Origin: Rhizobium rosettiformans
Lineage (GTDB): Bacteria > Pseudomonadota > Alphaproteobacteria > Rhizobiales > Rhizobiaceae
Assembly: GCF_016806065.1 (NCBI RefSeq)
Contig: NZ_CP032405.1
Coordinates: forward strand, 4,058,001-4,122,000
Reading direction: 5' to 3'
Length of the DNA stretch: 64,000 nt
In this document: piece after piece, positions 34,132-36,842 of the stretch
Layout of the letters: each line of letters starts with the position of its first letter
How positions within the stretch are numbered: position 1 is the first letter of the stretch
The notes under the pieces: generated by a model
What the model saw: the letters and a program-made list of their open reading frames with translations, nothing else
Told to the model about the DNA's origin: nothing
The model's database searches: none
Position numbers and translations under genes: made by a program

Positions 34132-35592
34132 TCAGGACGCAGCCAGTGTCTCATGCAGCCGCTTGACGTCTGCAAGGTCCGATCGGAAGGCCGCAAGGCT
34201 TCGTGCCTTCAGATCCGGATCCGGCATCCTGAGGATCGCCGACGGATGCGTCGTCACGAGCAGCATGCGGTTGTCCTGCATCGGGATCGGCATGCCTCGC
34301 ACCTCGGCGATCGGCCGGCTTTCGCCCGTCAGGGACAGATAGGCGGTCGCCCCCAGCGCAACGACGATGCGCGGCCGGATGATCTCGATCTCCTTGGCCA
34401 CCCACCAGCGGCAATGCGCGACTTCTCCGGCATCGGGCCGCATATGGATACGTCGCTTGCCGCGCCGCTCGTATTTGAAATGTTTAACTGCATTTGTGAC
34501 GTAAACCTGCGACCGGTTGATCCCTGCCGCCGCCACGGCCTCATCGAAGACCTGGCCGGCCGGGCCGATGAATGGCTTGCCCGCCAGATCCTCGGTGTCG
34601 CCCGGCTGCTCGCCGACGAACATGATCTCCGAATCCTTCGGCCCCTCGCCGAACACCGTCTGTGTCGCATGGCAATGCAGAGGGCAACGCGTGCAACCGG
34701 CTGCCTCCTGGCGCACCCGTTCGAGCGGCGGCAGATCAACCGATGCCCCCTCGTCTTCTCGTCCCCGCCACTGCGCCTGCAGTCGCTCGTGAAAGGCCGG
34801 CGGCTGGCTTGCCTCGCGCGCTGCCATTTCCTGAACCCGCCGCTCGGCTCCCGCAATCAAGTCCGGAATGAGCGAGGCCTCCGGCATGTTCTTCCAGTAT
34901 TTCTTCGGCATTTCCGACTGCATGGCCCTGATCTTCACCCGCGCCGGATTGAAGATATTGGCGAAATAGGTCCGCCACAGCTCGTCGGTCTCGTCTTCCG
35001 CTTCAGGTCGGGCGGCTGGCTCGCGCGAGGTCTTCAACTCCTGCCCGTTCCAGGCGGCAGAGCCCTTTGGCGTCGCGATCAGCCAGTCCATATCGGTGAA
35101 GCGCCGCTGGAAGAAGCCGGCGGTGCGCGCGACGATGAAATGCTCCGGCTCGAACCAGGCCACGAAGCGCCGCCGTTTCGCCTGGACAGCTTCCACCTCG
35201 CGGAACCGCACGAATGCCTTCATCTTGTGGCTGTCGCGCCGGACATTCTTGATCAGGCGAACGAGGTCGGCGACATCGGGATCCGATCGCACCTGCAGCA
35301 GCGCCCTTTCCGCCTGCAGCCGCCAAAGGATGCGATAGAGAAGTGGAAATCGATCCGGATCCGAATGGCAGATCGCCGCCTCCGCCGCCTCGATGAAGCC
35401 CTTCGGCACGACGGTCCCGGAGGGTGCCTCGACAGGAGTTTTCTCTGGAAGCAACGCGCCGAACAGATCGCCCCCCTCGCCCGAAAGCTGCCAGCGAACC
35501 TGATCGGGTGTCACCCGACCAGCCAGGAGCGAACGTGCAGCATCGCGCCACTCGTCGAACGCTCCTCGCCCTTCGAGCGTCACGGTTCGCAT
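34132..35592 (-). CDS. DUF4130 (TIGR03915) - UdgX uracil-DNA glycosylase fusion
   Basis: A 486-residue two-part protein. Residues 1-about 260 match the DUF4130/TIGR03915 family (DPDRFPLLYRILWRLQ at 78-93, then VRRDSHKMKAFVRFREVE and FNPARVKIRAMQSEMPKKYW). Residues about 285-486 are a UdgX-type uracil-DNA glycosylase: CTRC (300-303), GEQPGDTEDLAGKPFIGPAG (327-346), then the diagnostic KRRIH loop (379-383) and THPSAILR (448-455). In mycobacterial UdgX this histidine becomes covalently linked to the abasic site after uracil removal. The cysteines (C300, C303, C394 among others) fit a 4Fe-4S cluster. It overlaps the radical SAM gene by 1 nt and should be made with it. Confidence 0.88.
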   Translation of the reverse strand: MRTVTLEGRGAFDEWRDAARSLLAGRVTPDQVRWQLSGEGGDLFGALLPEKTPVEAPSGTVVPKGFIEAAEAAICHSDPDRFPLLYRILWRLQAERALLQVRSDPDVADLVRLIKNVRRDSHKMKAFVRFREVEAVQAKRRRFVAWFEPEHFIVARTAGFFQRRFTDMDWLIATPKGSAAWNGQELKTSREPAARPEAEDETDELWRTYFANIFNPARVKIRAMQSEMPKKYWKNMPEASLIPDLIAGAERRVQEMAAREASQPPAFHERLQAQWRGREDEGASVDLPPLERVRQEAAGCTRCPLHCHATQTVFGEGPKDSEIMFVGEQPGDTEDLAGKPFIGPAGQVFDEAVAAAGINRSQVYVTNAVKHFKYERRGKRRIHMRPDAGEVAHCRWWVAKEIEIIRPRIVVALGATAYLSLTGESRPIAEVRGMPIPMQDNRMLLVTTHPSAILRMPDPDLKARSLAAFRSDLADVKRLHETLAAS

Positions 35593-36821
35593 CAGAAGAG
35601 CGACAGCTGCTCGGCCGGCGGCGCAAACACCGCCCGCAGATCGGTCCGATCAAGGCTGCGATTGGGCGACCATCCCTCGGCGACGATGAAGGACCGTACC
35701 TTCTTCAGCGACACACCGAGACGCGTCAGGTCCTCAAGCCGCACGCGCCGGTGACGGCGGGCCGAGAGCAAGCCGTTCACAGTCTTCGTCCCGAAGCCCG
35801 GTACGCGCAGCAGCGTCTCCCGATCCGCCTTGTTGACATCAACCGGAAACCGATCGCGGTTCGCCAGCGCCCAGGCAAGCTTCGGATCCAGCTCCAGATC
35901 AAGCATGCCGCCCTGCCCGATCGACGAAATCTCCTCGACCGAGAAACCATAGAAGCGGTAAAGCCAGTCCGCCTGATAGAGTCGATGCTCGCGCATCAGG
36001 GGCGGCTTGATCAGCGGCAGGTTTTTCGAGCTGTCGGGGATCGGACTGAAGGCGGAATAGTAGACACGCTTCAACCCATAACTGCTGTAAAGCCGTGCGC
36101 TCGAGCCGAGGATCGTCGCGTCATTGGCGCCGTCGGCACCGACGATCATCTGGGTGCTTTGCCCGCCGGGCACGAACCTCTTGCGCCGTCCGGTGTGCGT
36201 CGGTTCGCGCGCCTCGTCGATCTTCAGCCTCAGATCCGCCATCGAGCGGCGGATGTTGACCGGACGCTTTTCGGGCGCATAGCGCTCCAGCCCGTGATCG
36301 GTCGGCAGCTCGATATTGATCGACAGGCGATCGGCATAAAGCCCCGCCTCCTCGACCAGATGCGCGGATGCCTCAGGGATGGTCTTCAGATGGATGTAGC
36401 CGCGAAAATCGTGCTTGGTGCGCAGGTCCCTGGCGATCTTCACCATCTCGGCCATGGTATCATCCGAGGATTTGATGATCCCGGAGGAGAGAAACAGCCC
36501 CTCGATGTAATTGCGACGGTAGAATTCGATCGTCAGCCAGACGACCTCGTCCGGCGTGAACCGCGCCCGCTCGACATTGCTCGAGGAACGATTGATGCAA
36601 TAGGCACAGTCGTAGATGCAGAAATTGGTGAGCAGGATCTTCAGGAGCGAGATACAGCGTCCATCCGGCGCATAGGCATGGCAGATGCCCGAGCCCTCCG
36701 TGGAGCCGAGCCCGCCCGATGCCGACGAGTCGCGCTTCGTCGTCCCGCTCGATGCGCAGGAGGCATCATATTTGGCAGCGTCGGACAGGATGGCGAGACG
36801 TTCTTTGAGCGACTTCTTCAT
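35592..36821 (-). CDS. Putative DNA modification/repair radical SAM protein
   Basis: A 409-residue radical SAM enzyme of the TIGR03916 group. The cluster-binding motif is C68-x3-C72-x2-C75 (NFCIYDCAYCINR). A core barrel follows, and a C-terminal helix-hairpin-helix (DVNKADRETLLRVPGFGTKT, about 328-347) suggests DNA binding. The family is always found with the DUF4130/UdgX partner, encoded here immediately downstream with a 1-nt overlap (TGATG). The chemistry is unknown; repair or modification of DNA bases is the usual inference. Only 6 nt separate the start codon from a LexA-type box, so the leader must be very short. Confidence 0.88.
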   Translation of the reverse strand: MKKSLKERLAILSDAAKYDASCASSGTTKRDSSASGGLGSTEGSGICHAYAPDGRCISLLKILLTNFCIYDCAYCINRSSSNVERARFTPDEVVWLTIEFYRRNYIEGLFLSSGIIKSSDDTMAEMVKIARDLRTKHDFRGYIHLKTIPEASAHLVEEAGLYADRLSINIELPTDHGLERYAPEKRPVNIRRSMADLRLKIDEAREPTHTGRRKRFVPGGQSTQMIVGADGANDATILGSSARLYSSYGLKRVYYSAFSPIPDSSKNLPLIKPPLMREHRLYQADWLYRFYGFSVEEISSIGQGGMLDLELDPKLAWALANRDRFPVDVNKADRETLLRVPGFGTKTVNGLLSARRHRRVRLEDLTRLGVSLKKVRSFIVAEGWSPNRSLDRTDLRAVFAPPAEQLSLF

Positions 36822-36827
36822 AAGAAT

Positions 36828-36842
36828 GTTCTCTATATGTTC
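36828..36842. promoter_or_regulatory. LexA (SOS) box upstream of the radical SAM-UdgX operon
   Basis: GTTC-TCTATAT-GTTC is a perfect match to the alphaproteobacterial LexA site GTTC-N7-GTTC. It lies 7 bp upstream of the radical SAM start codon. Its spacer contains a minus-strand TATAGA that could be the -10 element, with a CTTGACC -35 candidate near 36853-36859. LexA bound here would block this promoter directly. The greA start is 247 bp away on the other side and less likely to be affected. Confidence 0.7.

Follow-up and report, generated by a model that had tools for sequence, protein, structure and literature searches.

A 64,000-nucleotide stretch of the Rhizobium rosettiformans genome (contig NZ_CP032405.1, positions 4,058,001 to 4,122,000; hereafter the window, with positions counted from its first letter) carries on its minus strand two overlapping genes preceded by a match to the alphaproteobacterial LexA box. 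The first gene (35592..36821, 409 amino acids) encodes a radical S-adenosylmethionine (SAM) enzyme of the TIGR03916 family (rSAM_link_UDG; 568 bits against a cut-off of 343.5) that is also matched by the Pfam Radical_SAM profile; the genome holds one match to TIGR03916. The second (34132..35592, 486 amino acids) encodes, by family scores, a DUF4130 domain fused to a uracil-DNA glycosylase (UDG) of the UdgX type. Its start codon overlaps the radical SAM stop codon in the sequence TGATG, which agrees with the two-gene operon proposed in an earlier annotation made from the letters alone (the sequence-only reading).

Read along the minus strand, a probable −35 element, TTGAC (36858-36854), is followed by 11 nt, the box GAACATATAGAGAAC (GAAC-N7-GAAC; 36842-36828), 6 nt and the ATG at 36821; the plus strand of the box reads GTTCTCTATATGTTC (GTTC-N7-GTTC). 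The sequence-only reading had located this perfect box correctly, although it placed it 7 bp rather than 6 nt from the start codon. It had also pointed to a minus-strand TATAGA overlapping the box and to a near-leaderless start. Both observations stand: the hexamer (36837-36832), a probable −10 element, lies inside the box, and the distance from box to ATG would leave a leader of about 4–5 nt, as expected of a nearly leaderless SOS promoter. Across 37 loci from the same genus, TTGAC stands exactly 16 nt 5′ of the box in every case, the 11 nt between them vary, and the script-chosen ATG falls 4–7 nt downstream of the box. Among the 45 columns tabulated for these loci, invariant ones are confined to TTGAC and the box. 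Box offsets 5, 7 and 8 (the T, T and A of TATAGA) are invariant, the G is kept in 35 of 37, and the −10 element takes the form TATAGT or TATAGA. A generic promoter scan did not have this minus-strand promoter among its results because the hexamer spacing is 15, against the 16–18 required, and because TATAGA ends in A. One orthologous locus (L021) has two overlapping boxes with a common half-site (GAAC-N7-GAAC-N7-GAAC), at positions −32 and −21 relative to the radical SAM gene. From comparison with its relatives, we consider it very likely that the two overlapping genes are DNA-repair genes that form an operon under LexA (SOS) repression.

The box is conserved before orthologous genes in the genus and in wider draws. 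A radical SAM gene scored over the family cut-off in 37 of 60 genomes sampled from the genus, and a perfect box precedes it in all 37. Draws from the order (28 of 150 genomes over the cut-off) and the class (12 of 240), with the R. rosettiformans genome counted in both, supplied 38 further loci, of which 37 have a perfect box. From the phylum, 84 of 398 genomes passed, 29 of them outside the Alphaproteobacteria and 55 inside; the 55 include some already present in other sets, and the box is present in all 24 new alphaproteobacterial loci that were used. A final set of named loci (the best 80 of 588) has the box in 76, the misses being L144 and L162, whose boxes have one mismatch, together with L192 and L214, by their titles not alphaproteobacterial. 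The sets may overlap in species. Other windows of the same loci give chance expectations of 0.00 in 37 for the genus, 0.04 in 36 for the order and class loci that could be parsed, and 0.54 in 80 for the named loci. The sequence-only reading had predicted LexA control and had suggested looking for the box before orthologues in relatives; this search was run, and the box survived it. Only one alphaproteobacterial locus, L068, lacks a recognizable box; its host (G404) has a small 1.5-Mb genome, 92% complete, that keeps the radical SAM gene. What may be a decayed copy occurs at L066 (genome G109), where a brief match covers positions 1–39 of the radical SAM family and a TAG lies in frame.

Outside the Alphaproteobacteria the operator is a different one. 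Of the 29 non-alphaproteobacterial loci that passed the cut-off among the phylum genomes (L218 included), none has the alphaproteobacterial box; at the corresponding position, 19 have the gamma/betaproteobacterial LexA box CTGTN8ACAG and 24 have CTGTN8[AC]CAG, against 0.14 expected. Similarly, the named locus L192, from an Acidovorax metagenome-assembled genome, carries CTGTAAATTCATCCAG. Five of the 29 loci are boxless (L218, L266, L247, L259 and L270). The genome of L218 has no protein over the LexA cut-off, and the best LexA match in that of L266 reaches 99.6 bits against a cut-off of 110.95.

We compared these operators with those of lexA itself. The R. rosettiformans lexA (179.5 bits) has the box GAACACAACTGGAAC 61 nt before the match. 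A lexA gene over the cut-off was found in 28 of the 30 alphaproteobacterial genomes tested, the exceptions being G404 and G253 (92% and 85% complete). The best match in G404, host of the boxless L068, scores 84.5 bits against 110.95. Among 29 of 30 lexA or lexA-like loci that were examined, 27 have the alphaproteobacterial box no more than 400 bp before the match; its orientation is reversed in some, and at L115, a partial match, it lies at −361. The two without it are L116, a partial match, and L117, from G404. In non-alphaproteobacterial genomes other than those of family f223 (the hosts of L247, L259 and L270), a CTG-N10-CAG box accompanies seven of the eight best lexA loci (L271-L278). The operator switches with LexA type between classes.

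The second gene of the operon is more variable than the first. In the window protein, residues 9-239 match TIGR03915 (220.9 against a cut-off of 112.25) and the DUF4130 profile scores 138.6 against 27, and residues 241-475 match TIGR03914, the UdgX-type UDG family (320.3 against 189.95). The predicted structure of the fusion has a predicted local distance difference test (pLDDT) score of 90.9, and among its fold matches the UDG half aligns with Mycobacterium smegmatis UdgX entries (Protein Data Bank codes 6AIL, 6AJO and 6IOD) at 41–44% identity and 1.4–2.5 Å. The two share the GEQPG motif A, the KRRIH R-loop and an HPS motif B, supporting the UdgX assignment of the sequence-only reading. Motif B in the window, HPSAILR, has I in place of the first L/V of the consensus HPS(S/A)(L/V)(L/V)R given in a published description (PMC10359453). 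Unlike the mycobacterial enzyme, the window UDG is fused behind DUF4130 and has a radical SAM partner, and cross-linking is predicted for it by homology. A search of solved structures with the DUF4130 profile returned one match, at an E value of 0.26, and thus no solved relative by sequence; nor could this half be placed by fold, since hits to the UDG half dominate the 50 fold matches listed for the fusion.

The 80 named loci contain 72 UDG domains, all with the R-loop histidine; they were found by motif, so domains lacking the histidine would be missed. Six loci (five alphaproteobacterial loci and L192) have a second gene with DUF4130 only, L177 has a UDG match under the cut-off, and L191 has no second gene in the stretch covered. 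All five alphaproteobacterial operons of the DUF4130-only kind keep the box, four of them perfectly and one with one mismatch. In family scans of the 29 non-alphaproteobacterial second genes, DUF4130 is over the cut-off in every one, and UDG is over the cut-off in 10 (L245, L247, L250, L253, L254, L257, L259, L262, L265 and L270), under it in one (L268) and without a match in the remaining 18. Of these 18 operons, 16 have a LexA box upstream, the exceptions being those at L218 and L266; so do 7 of the 10 with UDG and that of L268. The pair of radical SAM enzyme and DUF4130 protein is therefore what the SOS system keeps, and this comparison shows the conserved unit, as delimited by family scans, to be radical SAM plus DUF4130, with UdgX optional.

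These counts bear on the alternative that the system works mainly through UdgX, with UdgX capping uracil or abasic sites covalently and the radical SAM partner acting on the resulting cross-link. The intact signature motifs of the window protein and the histidine retained in all 72 motif-found domains are in line with such a scheme, and the sequence-only reading had suggested that UdgX cross-linking might mark a site for further processing. Because operons without a UDG keep the box, however, the function common to these operons cannot depend on UdgX in cis (separate UdgX genes elsewhere were not searched for), and we regard the scheme as unlikely.

The radical SAM protein contains the CX3CX2C motif (C68, C72 and C75) and three further cysteines, C22, C47 and C56, all six of them unchanged in every one of the 37 alignment rows, and the six-cysteine pattern is kept in all 29 non-alphaproteobacterial loci. 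An AlphaFold2 model of the protein has a pLDDT of 84.4, with residues 22-44 poorly modelled (below 50), as a metal site omitted from the model might look; a second cluster there is our guess. The C-terminal tail resembles helix-hairpin-helix (HhH) proteins such as ComEA and RuvA through weak matches in a sequence search of solved structures. The fold matches (the best 50 of 62 at E ≤ 0.001) include HydE, pyruvate formate-lyase (PFL)-activating enzyme, viperin and lipoyl synthase. A radical SAM enzyme might act by direct reversal of a thymine lesion in the manner of spore photoproduct lyase, but that enzyme was not among the 13 and 19 solved-structure sequence matches or the best 50 of 62 fold matches, and six invariant cysteines, three of them beyond the radical SAM motif, do not appear to match the spore photoproduct lyase plan. 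We consider this kind of reversal improbable.

A ‘SplB-like’ label from 2013 likewise finds no backing in the sequence or fold matches. We also considered a role in anti-phage defence, which was rejected: neither protein was assigned to any PADLOC family. The radical SAM protein has matches in ten phage records, all below 60% identity. In one, a 240-kb record named ‘Acinetobacter phage MD-2021a’ (CAKLQH020000003.1), the radical SAM/DUF4130 pair adjoins glyS and glyQ, and the record looks like bacterial chromosome.

Several observations weigh against the reading of a LexA-repressed DNA-repair operon. L144 and L162 offer a one-mismatch box only, and 23 of the 60 genus genomes, some of them incomplete, have no match over the family cut-off. 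G253 has no LexA match, yet its operon (L078) has the box. The lexA gene at L274 and second lexA copies at L284 and L285 have no box in the stretch read. At L247, L259 and L270 a LexA box is missing from the operon though the lexA genes of these genomes have TTAGTAGTAATACTACTAA, and it is also missing at L214 of Xanthomonas dyei; LexA control is therefore not universal. One of the companion SOS genes described below, that for ImuA, was assigned on a score of 41.4 bits, below the cut-off of 150. DNA as the substrate is suggested indirectly, by UdgX, the HhH-like parts and SOS control. Finally, the published precedent bears on this operon through COG4277, which we take to be the TIGR03916 radical SAM family of the window.

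The boxless loci also speak to the nature of the regulator. L247, L259, L270 and L214 have a different inverted repeat, TCTCA-N5-TGAGA, in the place of the LexA box upstream of the radical SAM gene, and since L214 has the same kind of repeat, f223 may be Xanthomonadaceae. Such a substitution would suit a regulator other than LexA that shares GAAC half-sites and uses the direct repeat as its operator. We find this highly improbable, however, given that the operator becomes the gamma/betaproteobacterial LexA box outside the Alphaproteobacteria, that the same boxes stand before most of the lexA genes examined, and that the sole alphaproteobacterial locus without a recognizable box belongs to a genome without a protein over the LexA cut-off. 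Least probable of all is a chance box in an operon expressed constitutively from the TTGAC/TATAGA promoter: the pattern is indeed common, but its conservation in all four sets, between variable flanks, far exceeds the expected counts. The window has four copies of GTTC-N7-GTTC, whereas shuffled versions average 1.87 and 13 of 100 shuffles reach four; the whole genome (5.14 Mb in five contigs) has 147, against 123 for the reversed pattern, a density that gives about 7 × 10⁻⁴ for any 25-bp span. The box count alone says little; conservation across species settles that the box is real.

Returning to LexA repression, we propose that LexA bound to the box covers the −10 element and keeps RNA polymerase off. 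RecA filaments trigger the self-cleavage of LexA, after which the promoter TTGAC-N16-TATAGA would fire and yield a message with the very short leader suggested by the spacing. Its translation would yield the DUF4130 protein and the radical SAM enzyme, the latter with its HhH-like tail. A UdgX domain is fused to DUF4130 in most of the Alphaproteobacteria examined and, by homology, would remove uracil from DNA and remain covalently attached through its R-loop histidine. On balance we favour radical-based repair or modification of a damaged DNA base, in which DUF4130 binds or presents the substrate and UdgX, where present, caps uracil or abasic sites during SOS translesion synthesis. More tentatively, TIGR03916 and DUF4130 could together make up a previously undescribed type of SOS-induced enzyme, perhaps with a second metal site (C22, C47 and C56), that reverses or modifies a DNA lesion; UdgX would then be an optional addition, guarding uracil or abasic sites in single-stranded gaps at which the pair operates. 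That different classes place the pair under different LexA operators argues strongly that it acts on damaged DNA or in the aftermath of damage. The search for the chemistry narrows to the radical SAM enzyme and DUF4130 rather than UdgX, and operons without UdgX are a natural place to test the core reaction.

SOS regulation of this operon is very probably already known. A 2021 paper (PMC8565304) reports that COG1573-COG4277 forms an operon of the SOS regulon in Bacteroidetes and refers to previous accounts from Verrucomicrobia and Alphaproteobacteria, its reference 65 being a Caulobacter regulon paper. The Caulobacter control genome has a TIGR03916 match, which, like the UDG partner, fits our identification of COG4277. 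DNA-damage control, which the sequence-only reading had offered as the strongest clue, is thus already in print for what is presumably the same gene pair. A table of PMC9578287 gives GTTC-N7-GTTC as the Caulobacter operator, and PMC7739468 counts a radical SAM protein among the SOS genes of Gram-positive bacteria and Balneolaeota, there without a link to TIGR03916. Term searches of PMC6120978, PMC8102061 and PMC10776899 returned nothing on this operon, and the literature searched, which left out most subscription papers, yielded no biochemical work on the radical SAM/DUF4130 pair. The locus adds one member to an SOS operon family already known: like COG1573-COG4277, it is a UDG-containing two-gene unit under predicted SOS control. 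Relative to those reports the species is new, and the promoter footprint, the class-wide counts and the operator switch are measured here; within a search that most of the literature lay outside, our additions are the extent of the operon in Pseudomonadota, the promoter footprint and the optional UdgX. Another comparison is with HMCES/YedK (SRAP), which has an SOS association in common with the window operon. HMCES/YedK caps abasic sites covalently, with an unrelated fold and no known radical SAM partner.

The same genome offers further candidates for the regulon, whose genes were assigned by reading of open reading frames and by family scans of six proteins. Nineteen sites fit the extended box GAACRWWNNNNGAAC, against eight for a reversed control. 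Such sites precede an ImuA-like gene, dinB, a divergent uvrA/ssb pair, a radical SAM gene of the PA0069 family and the operon of the window; the box before the ImuA-like gene, GAACAAATAGAGAAC, differs by one base. The ImuA-like, dinB and uvrA/ssb genes therefore have the extended LexA box in common with the radical SAM/DUF4130 operon, and, unlike that pair, they have known repair or translesion functions. One of the six proteins scanned (L132) had no family match. The LexA-like box at C1:2440513-2440527 lies at the start of the PA0069-family gene (588 bits), which is possibly, from this position, a second SOS-controlled radical SAM enzyme.

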